Part shown: one piece after another, positions 242-11,452 of the stretch
How the letters are laid out: each line of letters opens with the position of its first letter
How positions within the stretch are numbered: position 1 is the stretch's first letter
Assembly: GCA_018780035.1 (NCBI GenBank)
Contig: JADMKE010000007.1
Coordinates: forward strand, 1 to 64,000
Direction of reading: 5' to 3'
Source of the DNA: Candidatus Sericytochromatia bacterium
GTDB taxonomy: Bacteria; Cyanobacteriota; Sericytochromatia; UBA7694
DNA: 64,000 nucleotides
The notes under the pieces: model-generated
What the model saw: only the letters and a program-made list of their open reading frames with translations
Databases searched by the model: none
What the model was told of the DNA's origin: nothing
Program-made: the position numbers and the translations under genes

Positions 242-3200
242 TTAAATTGAATTTATTTTCTCAACTATTTTTGCTGACTCCGTTAATGCAACTATAATTT
301 TTTGAAAGTGCAGAACATCATCAAAGTCAAGATTCGAACCTTTTCTATCTTTTAGCCATTTTTGAGCAGGTTTGTAACCACCTATTTGAAATTCCCATGC
401 AATTAGAGGAACTTGATCAAAATATTGTTCTTCATTAATCCATACTTTACCTAATTTATTGATGCTGTCACACAAATCCCAATTAATAACTGAATTTACT
501 TTATTACTACCACCAACAGGATAGCTTGTTATAAATTCTTCTACTATTGATGCATTTAATAAATGAGCTTGACGTAATTCATTTCCTAAATTCACCAAAA
601 ACAAAAAACTATTTTTATCCTTTGGATAAGGAATACGCGGAAAATCAATTTCTAAAAACTCTTTATATACTTCTCTATACTTTTTCGAATAACACATAGC
701 ATAGATATAATCTAAGATATCAATTGGTGCATAAGTATTTTTTGTGTTTTCTTTTTCATTGGAAAACGTTAAATTTATTTTTTTCGATAACTTTTTTATA
801 ATATCTTCATTAAGGTTTGGAGTTCTTTTGATTTTATTTTCATTATTTTCATCATTTTCATCAGTAATATCTGAATAAGTATATAGTGGAAAAATATTTG
901 CATTATCAAGAGTTGATATGATGCATTTATCAACAATTTTTTGTGTCAGATATGGAGTAACAAAATCTTTTTTTCTTGATCGTCTTACAAAACTTATAGC
1001 AATATTGTTATGAAAAAAATGTTTCATAAACTCGAATCTAGCACGTGCCAACAGATTGCTATCATAGTTTAAATATCGTTTATCAAAAGTTCTGTATTCG
1101 ACTTCTTGAACATGTTTGTCACCATATTTTTCAATAAGAATATTTTTATTTATATGAACATATTCTTTATCATTTCCAGTTGTAATTCCCATATTATTTT
1201 CAATGAATAATTCATTAACAGAAAATCCTTTATTATAAGTACTTTCTAAATCAAAATCTTTTTGAACCATAAAATATGATGGAGGGCTATTAGTCAACTG
1301 AGAAAATGGGATTGTATTCAAAGAATTTTCAAGTAAAAATTTATATTTAGATTCTCTTTTACCATAAAGGTCATAATGAAATACTTTTCCAAGCTCATTT
1401 GATTTTTTCTTACCTGTTTTAATAAAAATATTAATTGACACACCTTGTTGAATATCAAAAACATTTTCATCTACACTTCCATCTGGCGACGTTTCTTTTT
1501 TCTTACTATTTCCATGCAAATCTATAGTGTAGATTTTGTCGAATGTCTTTAACAAGCTCCATCTTACACCTCGAAATGTTGGGTTATCTAAAAAACCGTG
1601 TGGATTAATAAATGCGAGTAAACCAAATCCATTTTTTTCAATCAAATGTTGGCCTAATCTTAAGAATTTAACGTAATCATCGTTAATCCATTTTGGGTTG
1701 CGCTCGTTTAGCCTTTCTATTCCCCCAGGCTCTTTCTTATAATCTTCCATAAGATTCATAATCCAATCGCCTTTATTTGAACTTTCACCATTATATGGAG
1801 GATTACCAATAACGCACATTACGGGTGTATCACGTTTGATATAATTGGCCTCATTTGCTTCACTACTTAACCAATTTGCAAACAATGTTCCTGTATCTGG
1901 ATGATGTTCTTCTAAGCTATTTGTTAGATACACTCTTGTTCTTTGTAATTTTGAAGGTTTAAATCCACTCTCTTTAAGAAGTAAATCTAATTGTAAATGA
2001 GCCATAGCATAGCTTGCCATTAATAGCTCAAAGCCATTTAACCTTGGAAGTAAATGACTTTCAACATATCCACTCCAAATACCTTCTTGCCCTTTAAATT
2101 TTTTATGAATATATTTTATTACTTCAGCCAAAAAAGTACCTGTTCCAGTAGCTGGATCTAGGATTTGTACTTTATGTACTTCTTTTTCTACAATTTTGAA
2201 TCCTGTTTTTGAACGTTTATCGATGGTTTGAGAATTAACATTTATTTTTGTAGTTGCAGTATCTAATAAACCTTTGGGTATATCAAACTCAGATTTAAGA
2301 ATATCGTCAACAGCACGTACAATGAATTGAACTACTGGAGCAGGTGTGTACCAAACTCCGCGAGATTTTCTCAGTTTTGGATCATATTCAGCTAGAAAAG
2401 TTTCATAAAAATGGATAATTGGATCTTCCATTTTTGTTTTTTGACCATAATTTTTAAGTATTTCTTCTACATTACAGGCTAAAAATATTTCTGTGAGACT
2501 GTCAACAATCCATTTTATCCTGTCATCAATGTCTGGGCCTATTATGTAACCAAAAAGCTTTCTTAAAAATGGGTTTGATTTTGGTATTAATTCAGATGCT
2601 TCTTGTCTGCTAAATGTTGCTAAATCAGGGTCATGTAAACGAGCGGCAAACATACCATATGCAATTGTTTGTGCATATACATCCGCAAATTCTTTTGGTG
2701 TAATATCATGTATTAATACATTTTTAAAAGCAATCATTTGATCTTTTAATGTGCTGTCTTCTAGATTGTCTTCATCACTGGTTAATGCCTTTTCGATTAC
2801 GTCTGAAAGCAATCGAGATTTTCCCGCCATCATTTGAGCAAGTTTTTGAGGGCTTTTTATTGTCTGTCCAATAAATGAGCAAAAATCTTTAATTATATTG
2901 TTAAAGGTATTAAAATTTTGTGGTATTGGTTTAATACTGTTTCCATTTAGCTCTGCTATTGAAATTCTTGTTATAAGCTGTCCATCTCTATACAAATAAA
3001 AATCTAAATAATCAGTAAAAATTATATTGCTTAATGATGCTTTATAACGGTCAAATTGTTCTTTATTTCCTGTTTTCTTTCTACCTTCAAGATCTTTATC
3101 GCCTATATTCTTTGCTTCAATAAATCCAATTGGAATATCTTTACTAGTTAAGATATAGTCTGGGGCACCGCAAGATTGCCTTTTAGGTTCATTAGTCGCA

Positions 3201-3319
3201 CTAATATTTGGAACTATACTTTCAATTAGTTGTTGTAAATCCCCCCGAAAAGTGTGCTCTGTTGAATTACCTAATTTATAACGTTGGTTAATATTTTTGA
3301 TGTATTGATCAACTTCCAT
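242..3319 (-). CDS. Type IIG/ISP-like restriction-modification enzyme (N-terminal PD-(D/E)XK-like nuclease fused to N6-adenine DNA methyltransferase)
   Basis: 1025 aa ORF; motif I DPATGTGTFL, motif IV GNPPYNGES, N-terminal PDYILTSKDIPIGFIEAK matching PD..(E)xK; AT-rich. Confidence 0.88.
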   Translation of the reverse strand: MEVDQYIKNINQRYKLGNSTEHTFRGDLQQLIESIVPNISATNEPKRQSCGAPDYILTSKDIPIGFIEAKNIGDKDLEGRKKTGNKEQFDRYKASLSNIIFTDYLDFYLYRDGQLITRISIAELNGNSIKPIPQNFNTFNNIIKDFCSFIGQTIKSPQKLAQMMAGKSRLLSDVIEKALTSDEDNLEDSTLKDQMIAFKNVLIHDITPKEFADVYAQTIAYGMFAARLHDPDLATFSRQEASELIPKSNPFLRKLFGYIIGPDIDDRIKWIVDSLTEIFLACNVEEILKNYGQKTKMEDPIIHFYETFLAEYDPKLRKSRGVWYTPAPVVQFIVRAVDDILKSEFDIPKGLLDTATTKINVNSQTIDKRSKTGFKIVEKEVHKVQILDPATGTGTFLAEVIKYIHKKFKGQEGIWSGYVESHLLPRLNGFELLMASYAMAHLQLDLLLKESGFKPSKLQRTRVYLTNSLEEHHPDTGTLFANWLSSEANEANYIKRDTPVMCVIGNPPYNGESSNKGDWIMNLMEDYKKEPGGIERLNERNPKWINDDYVKFLRLGQHLIEKNGFGLLAFINPHGFLDNPTFRGVRWSLLKTFDKIYTIDLHGNSKKKETSPDGSVDENVFDIQQGVSINIFIKTGKKKSNELGKVFHYDLYGKRESKYKFLLENSLNTIPFSQLTNSPPSYFMVQKDFDLESTYNKGFSVNELFIENNMGITTGNDKEYVHINKNILIEKYGDKHVQEVEYRTFDKRYLNYDSNLLARARFEFMKHFFHNNIAISFVRRSRKKDFVTPYLTQKIVDKCIISTLDNANIFPLYTYSDITDENDENNENKIKRTPNLNEDIIKKLSKKINLTFSNEKENTKNTYAPIDILDYIYAMCYSKKYREVYKEFLEIDFPRIPYPKDKNSFLFLVNLGNELRQAHLLNASIVEEFITSYPVGGSNKVNSVINWDLCDSINKLGKVWINEEQYFDQVPLIAWEFQIGGYKPAQKWLKDRKGSNLDFDDVLHFQKIIVALTESAKIVEKINSI

Positions 3320-5279: not shown

Positions 5280-5870
5280 ATGTCTATGCGCCACCTGCTC
5301 TGTCTCTCTTTGCTCTTGGGCAGTGCCTCCTTTGCCCCAGCCTCCGCTTCTGCTGCCACAGACGTCTTTTCCCCCGGCTGGGAGCAAATGCGCCAAGACT
5401 ACGCCGAACGGGCCCTGATTCACAGATTTTATACAGCCTTTCAAAAGGGGGATGGGGCCACCATGGCTGCCTGTTACCATGCTGATGCCAGCTTCAGCGA
5501 TCCGATCTTTGGCCCACTCAAAGGCAAAGAAATTGGTGCCATGTGGCAAATGCTGCTTGAGATCAGCCAGGGCCAGCTCAAAATTGAATACGATCAGGTT
5601 GATGTCAAAGCCGGTCAGGGCAAGGCCCATTGGGATGCCGCTTACCACTTCTCGGCCACGGGTCTGCCCGTCTTCAATCACATTGATGCCCAATTCACCT
5701 TTAAAGACGGCCTGATCTACACCCACAACGACCACTTTGATCTTCACCGCTGGAGCAGCCAGGCCCTGGGACTGCCGGGCTTTTTATTCGGCCAGACGCC
5801 GTTTTTGCAAGAGGCCATGCGCAAACAGGTCAAAGCCCGCTTGAACGAATGGATCAAGGCCCATCCCTGA
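5280..5870 (+). CDS. Exported SnoaL/NTF2-like domain protein
   Basis: Signal peptide MSMRHLLCLSLLLGSASFAPASASA, then NTF2-like FYTAFQKGDGATMAACYHADASFSDPIFGPLKG. Confidence 0.7.
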   Translation: MSMRHLLCLSLLLGSASFAPASASAATDVFSPGWEQMRQDYAERALIHRFYTAFQKGDGATMAACYHADASFSDPIFGPLKGKEIGAMWQMLLEISQGQLKIEYDQVDVKAGQGKAHWDAAYHFSATGLPVFNHIDAQFTFKDGLIYTHNDHFDLHRWSSQALGLPGFLFGQTPFLQEAMRKQVKARLNEWIKAHP

Positions 5871-5910
5871 GCTGAATCCCGACCAACTCACCCTCTGGCA
5901 GCAGGGCCTG

Positions 5911-6228
5911 GTGGAATTCAACCAAGGGGCATTTTTTGAGGCCCACGAAAGCCTCGAAGATCTCTGGCGCAGCGACCTCACTCCCGCCCTCAAGACCGGG
6001 ATCCAGGGCCTGATTCAGGTGGCCGTGGCCTGTGTTCATCTGCAGCGCGGCAATGAAAAAGGCGCGCGGGGTGTCTTGGCTCGGGCCCTGAAGAATTTAC
6101 AGGCCGGAGAACTGCCCCAAGGCCAGCCCCAGCCCCTGCTCACAGCCCTCTGCGTTTGGCAAACTTGGCTTGGACAGGCCCCCGCAGAGCGGGGAGCAGC
6201 GCCGCCCTGGCCGCAATTTTTGCTTTAA
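5911..6228 (+). CDS. DUF309 family protein
   Basis: GTG start; EFNQGAFFEAHESLEDLWR...KTGIQGLIQVAVACVHLQRGNEKGA typical of DUF309. Confidence 0.75.
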   Translation: MEFNQGAFFEAHESLEDLWRSDLTPALKTGIQGLIQVAVACVHLQRGNEKGARGVLARALKNLQAGELPQGQPQPLLTALCVWQTWLGQAPAERGAAPPWPQFLL

Positions 6229-6315
6229 ACAGGGCAGACAAAAAAGAAGTGCAAACAATCCCAAAACATGAAATACTAAAAAGCATCAGCTCTGCGAACA
6301 CCGAGGAGACAGGCC

Positions 6316-6912
6316 ATGTTAACTGCCGAACTCAAATTGACCGACTCGCTTTTTGACGAAGTTGAAGCCAAATTGGAGGGCCTGGTCACGGCCTACCGCA
6401 CCACCGAATTGCCCAAAGCATCGTTGGATCCGGGGGTCTTAAAACAGCTCAACAAAGACCAGACCTTTCTCAAAAAGACCTGCGACAGCTTGCGCGCACA
6501 GTTGAGCCAATTGGATATCTCCCACCAACACGAAACCACCCGTTTGCACCTCAATTTTGATCTGTTGCTGCAGCGGTTGGCCCATTTTGACGAGGCCCTG
6601 CGCATTTCAGAGGTGATCAAAGCGCTGAATAACCGGCTCAAAGATGAAATTGCCGAGATCCGTGAGGCCAGCATCGCTCTGAGCAAGCAGATCCTGCCTT
6701 ATAACCTGCCCAAATTTGAAGCGGGGCTGGAAATGTTTATGGACCGCTGTGATCAGGTCGCCGACCAGCTCGATGCCCTGGAGAACCAAAGCCAAGATAT
6801 TACGCCGCTGATGCCTTTGTATGAGCAGTGGATGTTTCTGGTCGAACAATTTGGTGAGATTCTCGACGAGCGCACCGAGATTCTCTGCCCCAAAGAGGTT
6901 CAACCCGCATGA
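6316..6912 (+). CDS. Hypothetical coiled-coil protein
   Basis: 198 aa ORF, compatible spacing with the downstream ORF (4-bp overlap). Confidence 0.6.
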   Translation: MLTAELKLTDSLFDEVEAKLEGLVTAYRTTELPKASLDPGVLKQLNKDQTFLKKTCDSLRAQLSQLDISHQHETTRLHLNFDLLLQRLAHFDEALRISEVIKALNNRLKDEIAEIREASIALSKQILPYNLPKFEAGLEMFMDRCDQVADQLDALENQSQDITPLMPLYEQWMFLVEQFGEILDERTEILCPKEVQPA

Positions 6913-7280
6913 AAACCGTCCCCAAACCCACGCCCATTCTGTCCCTGTTGCTGGGCCTCAGCCTCTGGGGTTGCACGGCCACAGCCAGTGGCAATTGGAG
7001 CTTTTTTCAGGGTCTCAAGCTCAGCAGCGGCAGTGCCTCCAGCCGGGTTGCCAATGGCCGAATCCAGATCAACTGGGAGCGCACCTCAGAAAACCAAGTC
7101 AAAGTCACAGGCAATTTGGACTTTGATCTCGACAAGGTCTATTTGCGCCTGATGCGCAACCAGGGAATGGTCCACCAAGAGATTGTTAAACCCGACGCCG
7201 AGCGCAAATTTTCGGCGGTTTTGCCCGATCCCCAATTTGCCGATCATCTCTGTGTCGAAACAGATTGTTTTGACATATGA
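6909..7280 (+). CDS. Hypothetical lipoprotein
   Basis: N-terminal lipobox-like LLLGLSLWGC; overlaps neighbours by 4 bp on each side. Confidence 0.6.
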   Translation: MKTVPKPTPILSLLLGLSLWGCTATASGNWSFFQGLKLSSGSASSRVANGRIQINWERTSENQVKVTGNLDFDLDKVYLRLMRNQGMVHQEIVKPDAERKFSAVLPDPQFADHLCVETDCFDI

Positions 7281-8767
7281 GCAAGCCCCCCACGCCGCCG
7301 ACCATCTGTTCGCGTTGCAGCAAACGCCTGGGGCCCCAGGTTGTGCGCGCTGTGGGCAAACAGTTTCACCCGGCCTGTTTTGTCTGCGACAGCTGCAAAA
7401 AGCCGCTCGAAAAGAGCTTTGTGCCGCGGGGCGAGCGCCTCTACCACGGGGAGTGCCACGACAAACTCTTTACTCCCAAATGCAGTGAATGTGGTTTGCC
7501 GATTCAAGGCCCGTATACCAAAGACGAGCGGGGCCGCTACCACACCGACTGTTACCGCCAATTGCACAATCTCGTCTGCAGCCTCTGCCAGGGAGCGATT
7601 GAAGGCAGCTATCTCTACGATGGCTGGGGCCAAAAAGCCCACCCCGAACACGATCAGCACCCCACCGGCCAATGCCATGTCTGCGCCCGCCTGATGTCTC
7701 CAGCGGCGACCACGGGCAGCAAGGTGCTCAGTGATGGCCGCCTGCTCTGCAGCTTTTGCCACAGCGCTGAGATCCACGACTTTAAACAGATTCAGGCTGC
7801 CAAATTGGATGTGATCGCCCAAATGCAGGCCGTGGGCTTTGACTATATCCCCGACTATATCCAGGTCAAACTCGACGAAGACCAGCAATTGGTCAACCAG
7901 CGTTTGCGGGCCTCGGCCACGGGCAATATTCACGGCTATACCCGCACGGCCCAGCGCAATATTCCCGGCTATGGCCTGATTCTCGAACATGGCATTCACG
8001 TGCTCAGCGGCCTGCCCAAGGTGGCCTTTAAAGGCGTTTTGGCCCACGAACTTTTGCACGTCTGGATCAACGAGCGGCCGCTCAAACACCTCAGCCACGA
8101 ACAGGTTGAGGGCTTCTGCAATTTGGGCAGCGCCTTGATCTGCCAAAATGCCCTCAAAAACGAAGGCGATGAATTGGCCCGCGTGCTGCTGCAGCGCATG
8201 GACGAAGACCCCGACCCCGCTTATGGCCATGGCTACCGCGCCATGGCCTGGCGTCTGGAACAAATGGGCTGGCCTGCCCTGCTGCAGGCTTTGCAAAACC
8301 CCGACATTCCCCTGCCCGAGCCCGAGGCCAGTGTTACCCAGCCCCGTGCCAAACAGGCCCTTTTGCCCCCAGAGCCCGCTCCCTTTGGCTCCGCTCAGGG
8401 AGCGAATCGGGGAGCGAATCAAGAAACGAACCCCAAAACCATGAGCAGCGCCGAAAAACTGGCCGAGATCAAAGCCAAACTCGACCAACAGCGCATGCAA
8501 AACAAACCCGCAGCAGCCACACCAAGTCCATCCCCCGCGGCCCCCCGCTCCCTGAGTCCCCTGAGCCGTCTGTCGAGCGAAGGGAGCGAAGGGAGCAAAC
8601 CAGACGTAGATCCCGAAGTGGCAAGAAAAATCCGCGAGCGCTTTGCCCAAAAAGGCAGCCCCAAAGCCAATATTCAAGCCCAGAAACCAGCACAAAAACC
8701 AGGCCAGAAACCCGGTGCTGGCCCCAGCGGCAAATTGGGCAAGCTCAAAAAACCGGGCAAAAGTTGA
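7277..8767 (+). CDS. LIM-domain zinc protein with DA1-like metallopeptidase domain
   Basis: Tandem LIM-type CxxC...HxxCFxCxxC...HxxC motifs; HELLHVW zinc-peptidase motif followed by HEQVEGFCNL; proline-rich tail. Confidence 0.8.
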   Translation: MSKPPTPPTICSRCSKRLGPQVVRAVGKQFHPACFVCDSCKKPLEKSFVPRGERLYHGECHDKLFTPKCSECGLPIQGPYTKDERGRYHTDCYRQLHNLVCSLCQGAIEGSYLYDGWGQKAHPEHDQHPTGQCHVCARLMSPAATTGSKVLSDGRLLCSFCHSAEIHDFKQIQAAKLDVIAQMQAVGFDYIPDYIQVKLDEDQQLVNQRLRASATGNIHGYTRTAQRNIPGYGLILEHGIHVLSGLPKVAFKGVLAHELLHVWINERPLKHLSHEQVEGFCNLGSALICQNALKNEGDELARVLLQRMDEDPDPAYGHGYRAMAWRLEQMGWPALLQALQNPDIPLPEPEASVTQPRAKQALLPPEPAPFGSAQGANRGANQETNPKTMSSAEKLAEIKAKLDQQRMQNKPAAATPSPSPAAPRSLSPLSRLSSEGSEGSKPDVDPEVARKIRERFAQKGSPKANIQAQKPAQKPGQKPGAGPSGKLGKLKKPGKS

Positions 8768-10005
8768 AGCGCGTCGTCTTGTCCAGACCGAATCTGTTTA
8801 TGTCTCTGGTTCTGGTTCTGTTTCTGATGGCGGCTCTGAACCTCTCGCCCGCCCAGGCTCAAACTCAGGTTCCCGCCAAAATGAACTTCTGGAAAACCCA
8901 GCGCAAAGGGGCCAATTGTTTTAATCTGAGGCCCGAGATGGCCTGGTTTCAAGCGGCCAAAGCCCAGCGACTGGGCTGGGTCCGTTTGGCGTACGACAAA
9001 TGGCAAGGCCAGGAGCGCGACTTTTTGCTGGGCAATGCCGACCAGTTTCAACATCTTCAGCCCCAGGATCTGGCCCAGCTCAAACGGGTACTTGATATGG
9101 CCCAGCAGGCCGGCGTCAAAGTGGTGATTAGCCCCTTGAGCCTGCCCGGCGCCCGCTGGCGGCAAAACAACAACGACCAAGCAGATCTCAGGCTCTGGCA
9201 GAACAAAGCCTATTGGCAACAAGCGGCGCTGTTTTGGCAAGAACTGGCTTTGGCCCTCAAAGATCACCCGGCGGTGGTGGGGTATAACCTGATCAACGAA
9301 CCCACGCCCGAAATGGGCACGGGACTCCCAGAGCAAGGCCCGGCCCAGCGCTATCTCGATTGGTATGCCCGCTACCGGGGCAGCTCCCATGACTTACCCG
9401 CCTTTTACCAAACCCTGATCACAGCCATCCGGCAGGTGGATCCAGAGACACCCATTCTGCTGGATGCGGGTTGGTACGCCCAGCCCGCCGCCTTTGTCCA
9501 TTGGCAACGCCTGTCAGATCCCAACCTGCTCTACGCCTTTCACATGTACGAGCCTTATGCCTTTACCAATCTTGCCAATTTTAAAGCAGGCCAGCCCTAC
9601 CGCTATCCCGGCATGATCCCCCTGGAAAAAGAGCCCATCAACTGGAATGCAGCCGCTCTCAAACGCCATTTAAAGCCGTTTTTAGACTGGGCCCGCCTGC
9701 AAAAATTGGCTCCCCACCAAATTGTGGCTTCAGAATTTGGCTGTTACCGCCGCAACCCAGGATGTGCACAGTATTTGCAGGATCTGATCCAACTTTGGAA
9801 CCAAGAGCGCTTTCACTGGGCTTTTTATTCTTTTCGCGAAGATGAATGGGATGGCTATGATTACGAAGTGGGTACAGGCCCACTGCCTGCCAGCTATTGG
9901 GAAGCCCTGGATCGGGGAGAACATCCCTCCCCACCACGCAAACCCAATCCGCTCTTTGAGGTTCTGGCCAAGGAGTTTCGGGGCCCCTCAACGCGGCCCG
10001 ACTAA
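8764..10005 (+). CDS. Glycoside hydrolase family 5-like (cellulase-type) protein, exported
   Basis: Signal peptide; YNLINEPTPEMG acid/base motif; FHMYEPYAF; VASEFGCYRR nucleophile region. Confidence 0.85.
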   Translation: MKRVVLSRPNLFMSLVLVLFLMAALNLSPAQAQTQVPAKMNFWKTQRKGANCFNLRPEMAWFQAAKAQRLGWVRLAYDKWQGQERDFLLGNADQFQHLQPQDLAQLKRVLDMAQQAGVKVVISPLSLPGARWRQNNNDQADLRLWQNKAYWQQAALFWQELALALKDHPAVVGYNLINEPTPEMGTGLPEQGPAQRYLDWYARYRGSSHDLPAFYQTLITAIRQVDPETPILLDAGWYAQPAAFVHWQRLSDPNLLYAFHMYEPYAFTNLANFKAGQPYRYPGMIPLEKEPINWNAAALKRHLKPFLDWARLQKLAPHQIVASEFGCYRRNPGCAQYLQDLIQLWNQERFHWAFYSFREDEWDGYDYEVGTGPLPASYWEALDRGEHPSPPRKPNPLFEVLAKEFRGPSTRPD

Positions 10006-10017
10006 AAAAAACATATG

Positions 10018-10056
10018 AAAAAACCCGGCAGACAATAGGGGGGGGCGTCCGCCGGG
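10018..10056 (-). terminator. Intrinsic terminator of the large ncRNA
   Basis: Minus strand CCCGGCGGAC ... GTCTGCCGGG followed by TTTTTT. Confidence 0.9.
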
Positions 10057-10795
10057 TCAGGCCTTCAAGGATACCCTTGAGGGCACAAGCCTTGAAAACC
10101 AAACAAATTACTGCATCGCTGTCCTTCTTGAAGTCTTCGTTTCAGCCAGGCAACTTTCCTTTTCAGGTGCCTCAACCACTTTCAGCGTTTCTCCCTCACC
10201 TTGCGGCAAGAGCACTCTTAGCGGCCTGTATCTGACATCCACTATCCCACATTGCTGCGAGATCCTTCTACAAGGTTTCTGCGCCGCTACAGGGTGTTCT
10301 CCCCTGTCGGCGTGTGTGCGAACAAACCTTTCGGCTCCTTCGCACCTTGGCGCTCCTGGCCTTTTTCAGGCCTTCAACGCTTTGCACTCCGACAGAATCC
10401 TTTGCCTTTCGGCCAGTGACCCTCATGCGGTTACACCTTCAGGGTTTTGCACTTAACGGTTATCTGCCACTGTCACCAGCGCCTGCCGCTCTTGTCTTTT
10501 CTCCATTGCTGGCTGAGACTTCAGCGGTTTATGCCAACCGTTGCGTGTGTTGGGCGAACCCAACCTTGACCCTCTTGGGCGTTTATCCTTCCAGGGAATT
10601 CCCCTCTCAACCAGCGGCCACCTGCTTCCAGGTCGCTCCCGTTTTGCTGTTTCGACAACTTGACGGTTTTGTTCCGATTGAGAGTTGGCTTGCTCAAAGT
10701 GTTTTCACACCCGCTGCCGCCCCTCTGAGGCTTCTTGGCCCGGGTTCTCACCGGGTCCGTTTGCGACGCTTCTTCGATTGTTTTCCGAAGCTCGT
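10018..10795 (-). ncRNA. Large structured noncoding RNA candidate (~780 nt)
   Basis: Minus-strand promoter TTGACA-N17-TATTAT upstream, intrinsic terminator downstream, at least 11 local hairpins, no credible ORF. Confidence 0.8.
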
Positions 10796-10801
10796 ATATT
10801 C

Positions 10802-10830
10802 ATAATAAGACTTCTGGTTAAAAATGTCAA
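10802..10830 (-). promoter_or_regulatory. Near-consensus sigma70 promoter of the large ncRNA
   Basis: Minus strand TTGACA (10830-10825), 17-nt spacer, TATTAT (10807-10802). Confidence 0.85.
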
Positions 10831-11012
10831 GAGTAGGCTAAAAAGAATTTAAGAAAAACTAAAAAATCTTTAAAAGTAGGATAAAAACAGAACCGACTTG
10901 CCTTCTCAGAAGGCCATGTTAAACTGAATCACGGCTGATGGGTTGCACCAGGATCATTGCTGCTGGCCACCTGCGAAGCCAAATTATTCGATCTAAAAAG
11001 GAAATTTGATTC

Positions 11013-11390
11013 ATGTCTAAATTGATGATTCTCGGCAGCGCACTGCTGGCCCTCTCCCTGACCGCTTGTGGCCCCAACCCCGCTGGCAGTGGTACCACCA
11101 CCGGTAATGGAACAACAACAGGTAACGGCACCACCACAGGCACTGGAACGGCGACAGGGAGCAGCACAAGTGTGGCTGCAATCATTAGCACCAAAGCGAG
11201 TTATATCGCATTTTTAAACTGTGTCAAAGAAAAATACACAAAACCCGAAGACAAAGCCAGTGTTGAAGCCGCTATTACCAATCTCAACAGTGTTCCAGAT
11301 TCAACCTGGGCGATTTTCTCTGCAACTTTGAGTGCCAGTGTTCAAGCCAGTTATGGTGCTCAATTAACAGCCTGTGGCTCTGTAAAATAA
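11013..11390 (+). CDS. Hypothetical lipoprotein with GTTTGN linker
   Basis: Lipobox LSLTAC; low-complexity GSGTTTGNGTTTGNGTTTGTGTATG; C-terminal domain paralogous to the next gene. Confidence 0.7.
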   Translation: MSKLMILGSALLALSLTACGPNPAGSGTTTGNGTTTGNGTTTGTGTATGSSTSVAAIISTKASYIAFLNCVKEKYTKPEDKASVEAAITNLNSVPDSTWAIFSATLSASVQASYGAQLTACGSVK

Positions 11391-11403
11391 TCAAAGCCAT
11401 TTA

Positions 11404-11452
11404 AACCCCTCACAATTTGATGATTATTATTCAGAGAGTGAGGGGTTCTTTT
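11404..11452 (+). terminator. Intrinsic terminator
   Basis: AACCCCTCAC ... GTGAGGGGTT followed by CTTTT. Confidence 0.75.

Follow-up and report, generated by a model that had tools for sequence, protein, structure and literature searches.

A gene on the forward strand (7277-8767) of the window, the whole 64,000-nucleotide stretch of DNA that we analysed, encodes a probable zinc-dependent peptidase equipped with LIM modules, a bacterial relative of plant DA1. The open reading frame starts with ATG and specifies 496 amino acids beginning with MSKPPTPPTICSRC; a signal peptide is not visible in the translation. All sequence motifs quoted in a first-pass annotation made from the DNA letters were found in this frame, and the identity proposed there, LIM domains fused to a DA1-like peptidase, was borne out by Pfam, as both families clear their cut-offs: LIM (PF00412) at residues 11-64 with an E-value of 5.9e-13 and 49.3 bits against a cut-off of 22.9, and DA1-like (PF12315) with 2.8e-11 and 43.7 bits against a cut-off of 25, the best stretch being residues 239-283. 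No unrelated family was assigned to the C-terminal half, where PF12315 was detected by Pfam in all 21 homologues scanned from the class, and NCBIfam holds no model for the protein.

The consecutive LIM zinc fingers claimed for the N-terminal part were recovered in altered form, since one canonical LIM domain is present and the others are a half-LIM and a LIM-like module, not three full LIM domains. The canonical domain (residues 11-64, 7307-7468, forward strand as for all features of this gene) carries two sets of zinc ligands, C11, C14, H31, C34 and C37, C40, H58, C61, and its structural matches are the LIM domains of PINCH and Lhx3, with E-values from 5.7e-07 to 1.9e-06. The half-LIM, recognised from sequence and alignment, has one four-ligand zinc site, C69-x2-C72 ... 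H89-x2-C92 (7481-7552). The LIM-like two-zinc module (residues 101-161, 7577-7759; ligands C101, C104, H122, H125 and C133, C136, C158, C161) directly abuts the DA1-like peptidase domain (residues 162-345, 7760-8311), which was delimited by PF12315 and the AlphaFold model. Within the latter lie HELLH, the predicted zinc-binding and catalytic motif (residues 257-261, 8045-8059), E278, the predicted third zinc ligand according to its invariance and a spacing as in the plant motif (8108-8110), and the C-terminal family motif YGHGYR (YGxGxR, residues 316-321, 8222-8239). The remainder (8312-8764) is a mostly disordered tail of low pLDDT with helices at residues 391-408 and 446-457 and the basic end KLGKLKKPGKS; a tail of the same kind is kept in five of five window-type orthologues aligned, and its basic end is conserved.

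Alignment of 21 Sericytochromatia homologues showed the eight ligands of the LIM-like module, H257-E258-H261, E278-G279 and, in the YGxGxR motif, Y316, G317, G319 and R321 to be invariant in every sequence. The catalytic segment likewise keeps its H, E, L, H, W, E and G invariant in 73 homologues from many phyla. These were gathered with an HExxH-type pattern, which makes the invariance of H/E/H partly a product of the collection; this applies less to the E and G further downstream. Comparison with the same-genus orthologue gave pN 0.207 and pS 0.696 for the whole gene and pN 0.162 and pS 0.695 for the core, with pS near saturation, values that indicate purifying selection on the gene. Chance similarity was therefore rejected, because the ligands of the LIM-like module and the catalytic residues are invariant across the 21 homologues and selection maintains the gene.

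The full-length model is confident over residues 11-360 (pLDDT above 80, mostly above 90) and has low pLDDT in the tail. Modelled alone (residues 161-350), the peptidase domain reached a mean pLDDT of 94.2 and a pTM of 0.91, with the HExxH helix followed by a helix bearing E. This model and zincin neighbours of high probability would fit the expected zinc-peptidase fold, but none of the structural neighbours found by Foldseek has an E-value <= 0.001. The most sensible PDB neighbour is the M9 gluzincin collagenase 8jt1 (probability 0.93, E 0.096, TMq 0.49); matches to YopH rank at the top of the PDB search but have low probability and a TM near 0.2. Viral neighbours of high probability include SprT-like, IrrE and phage peptidases, all zincins, again with E above 0.001. 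SprT, IrrE and M9 collagenase bear a weak fold likeness to the domain, whereas they lack LIM modules and have no sequence family match with it. Searching solved structures by sequence retrieved LIM proteins almost exclusively, and a solved DA1 structure was not found among them. We read the modelled domain as a zincin fold without a close solved relative.

In plants, DA1 regulates how large organs and seeds become, and ubiquitin activates it. Arabidopsis DA1/DAR proteins (PF12315) share with the window protein a LIM domain, a LIM-like module in front of the peptidase domain and HExxH, and the likeness to plant DA1 asserted in the first-pass annotation stands for the LIM and peptidase core. The plant motif is HEMMH-X15-EE (PMC5322733), and the HELLH-X16-E278 of the window protein matches its second E, while the first corresponds to V277. 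In contrast to the plant protein, the window protein has an extra half-LIM and a basic disordered tail, lacks the UIMs (no match to the UIM family in a Pfam scan at E <= 1) and gives no sign of ubiquitin control. The “ubiquitin-activated” half of the comparison consequently fails to carry over. The families of ubiquitin (PF00240) and E2 (PF00179) had no Pfam match in the protein's own genome and none in the control genomes either; with the UIM absent and neither family detected, in searches run without a positive control, control by ubiquitin is unlikely and ubiquitin is probably not the trigger of the peptidase.

Dong et al. 2017 (PMC5322733), with reference to Burroughs et al. 2011, call the DA1-like domain ancient and conserved and describe bacterial proteins, from Roseiflexus, that resemble DA1, including its LIM-like zinc-binding motifs. 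Bacterial LIM/DA1-like proteins were already known before the window protein; the clade structure, the conserved tail and the gene context in Bacteroidales are added here. Compared by description, the Roseiflexus proteins have the LIM-like zinc ligands of DA1 in common with the window protein, which differs in belonging to a separate xEGFCNLGS-type clade and in its C-terminal tail. A broad bacterial family that has the LIM-like and peptidase core of DA1 but apparently does without ubiquitin provides a simpler setting in which to study the control of a peptidase by a LIM-like module.

Our preferred reading, which we consider likely, is that the window protein is a cytoplasmic DA1-like zinc endopeptidase that is recruited through its LIM modules, gated by its LIM-like module and docked by its basic tail, with a trigger that is probably other than ubiquitin. 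H257 and H261 of HELLH together with E278 would hold the catalytic zinc and E258 would activate water; the AEMMA mutant of plant DA1 no longer cleaves (PMC5322733). The LIM, half-LIM and LIM-like modules may serve to bind partners or protein substrates, and a second docking element could be provided by the conserved basic tail. That the LIM-like module abutting the catalytic domain may gate peptidase activity is favoured by analogy with plant DA1(C274Y), in which replacing a LIM-like cysteine leads to loss of activity (PMC5322733). The cytoplasmic location is suggested because a signal peptide is not visible, while one is seen in many homologues of other clades. The domains, invariant residues, selection and distribution were observed directly, and catalysis, location, LIM-mediated recruitment and gating and the role of the tail are inferred; our literature search found no biochemistry for the clade of the window protein.

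Could the protein be mainly a LIM scaffold with an inactive peptidase domain? LIM domains are protein-binding modules, and V277, standing where the plant EE pair has its first E, would suit such a role. However, this position is variable throughout the family, so the replaced E is unlikely to be a ligand, whereas H257, E258, H261 and E278 do not vary among the 73 homologues and purifying selection acts on the core, which makes a mainly scaffolding role very improbable. Action on the cell envelope, in company with the operon neighbours or with peptidoglycan synthases, is likewise improbable to us. The start of the LIM-DA1 gene overlaps (ATGA) the stop of a small lipoprotein-like gene of 123 aa (6909-7280, forward), which is itself overlapped by a gene for a 198-aa coiled-coil protein (6316-6912, forward), and a glycosyl hydrolase family 5 gene (8764-10005, forward; PF00150, E 1.5e-21) lies downstream. 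Moreover, a PBP1A-type gene is directly upstream of the homologues at loci L068, L071 and L077, and signal peptides occur on many homologues of other clades. Against this, the window protein itself has no visible signal peptide and the homologues with a PBP1A-type neighbour fall in another clade. The order coiled-coil, lipoprotein-like, LIM-DA1 is kept in the same-genus genome G001, with about 0.66 kb between the last two genes, but the hydrolase gene does not adjoin the orthologue there, and in the other genomes of family f1 the three-gene order is not kept and neither the lipoprotein-like nor the hydrolase gene was found at the respective loci. In its own genome the coiled-coil gene belongs to a set of 22 related stretches, mostly parts of ORFs of 300-350 aa, and the one relative scanned had no Pfam match. 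A short ORF-like stretch at 10314-10805 (forward) recurs several times near the orthologous locus of G001 (L015 596-946, 4638-5120 and 4940-5245), which suggests a dispersed repeat.

A different gene context was observed in Bacteroidales, where 9 of 11 genomes have LIM-DA1 next to genes for VWA, PP2C_2 and protein kinase, arranged in two orientations (loci L088, L092, L096, L097, L099, L100, L104, L109 and L110; the L092 contig ends before the kinase). In six of these nine genomes, no PP2C_2 other than this neighbour was found. To our knowledge, which stems from a limited literature search, this link has no earlier report. It raises the idea that the peptidase is the output of a phosphorylation-controlled VWA-PP2C-kinase stress module of the TerY type, and the genome of the window does contain a row of kinase, PP2C, VWA, VWA, TerD and TerD genes (L136, contig C14 of G000, 5597-11432, minus strand). 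Nevertheless, this cluster is on another contig than LIM-DA1, which has no adjoining VWA, PP2C or kinase gene in the window; neither TerD nor a match to the C14-type PP2C was found in the four other f1 genomes, all carrying a window-type LIM-DA1; and the TerD-bearing genomes of families f2 and f3 are without DA1-like genes. Since the peptidase gene occurs with neither TerD nor that PP2C in those four f1 genomes, the link does not hold throughout the lineage of the window and its extension to it was rejected, so that we hold the module reading to be improbable for this protein. Also unlikely is a history in which the LIM-DA1 proteins of the clade that holds the window protein were originally effectors of kinase/phosphatase modules, their LIM modules reading phosphorylation instead of ubiquitin, and the Sericytochromatia copies later came under other control. 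In Bacteroidales, a group with culturable members, these neighbourhoods point to a concrete and testable candidate regulator. For the window protein, the LIM-recruited zinc endopeptidase remains our preferred reading.

Of 18 genomes of the class Sericytochromatia, 14 contain DA1-like genes, whereas the 41 genomes sampled elsewhere in the phylum yielded none. A contig scan with the window protein sequence alone gave no match, whereas an alignment-based scan retrieved relatives from Zixibacteria, Ignavibacteria, Chloroflexota, Bacteroidales, Neomarinimicrobiota, Spirochaetota and others; no relative was found in the viral contigs searched. LIM-bearing DA1-like proteins are hence patchy but widespread in bacteria, as the relatives span many phyla. 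A quick tree of 88 sequences resolved at least three clades: a Chloroflexota/Pseudomonadota group; Zixibacteria and Ignavibacteria with other Sericytochromatia sequences, many of them with signal peptides; and a clade with support of 99 and the motif xEGFCNLGS, which unites the window protein, its paralogue, Bacteroidales and Neomarinimicrobiota. A topology with every Sericytochromatia sequence in a single clade was rejected on this quick tree (p-AU 0.0099). By these sequences the clade of the window protein differs from that of the other Sericytochromatia members sampled, and either ancient paralogy or horizontal transfer could account for the split. Eukaryotic contamination was rejected, as the window contains SecY, EF-G, chaperonin and other ordinary bacterial genes and orthologues are present in four related genomes.

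A second LIM-DA1 gene is located on contig C1 of the same genome and a partial copy on C49; the two share 702 bp at 99.4% identity (L027 12781-13482 and L028 6299-7000), the partial copy being either a recent duplication or an assembly artefact. A defence role for the window protein was dropped, since it has no PADLOC match. Elsewhere in the window, a 1025-aa protein (242-3319, reverse strand) matches the type IIG restriction-methyltransferase model PDLC03610 with 1098 bits.
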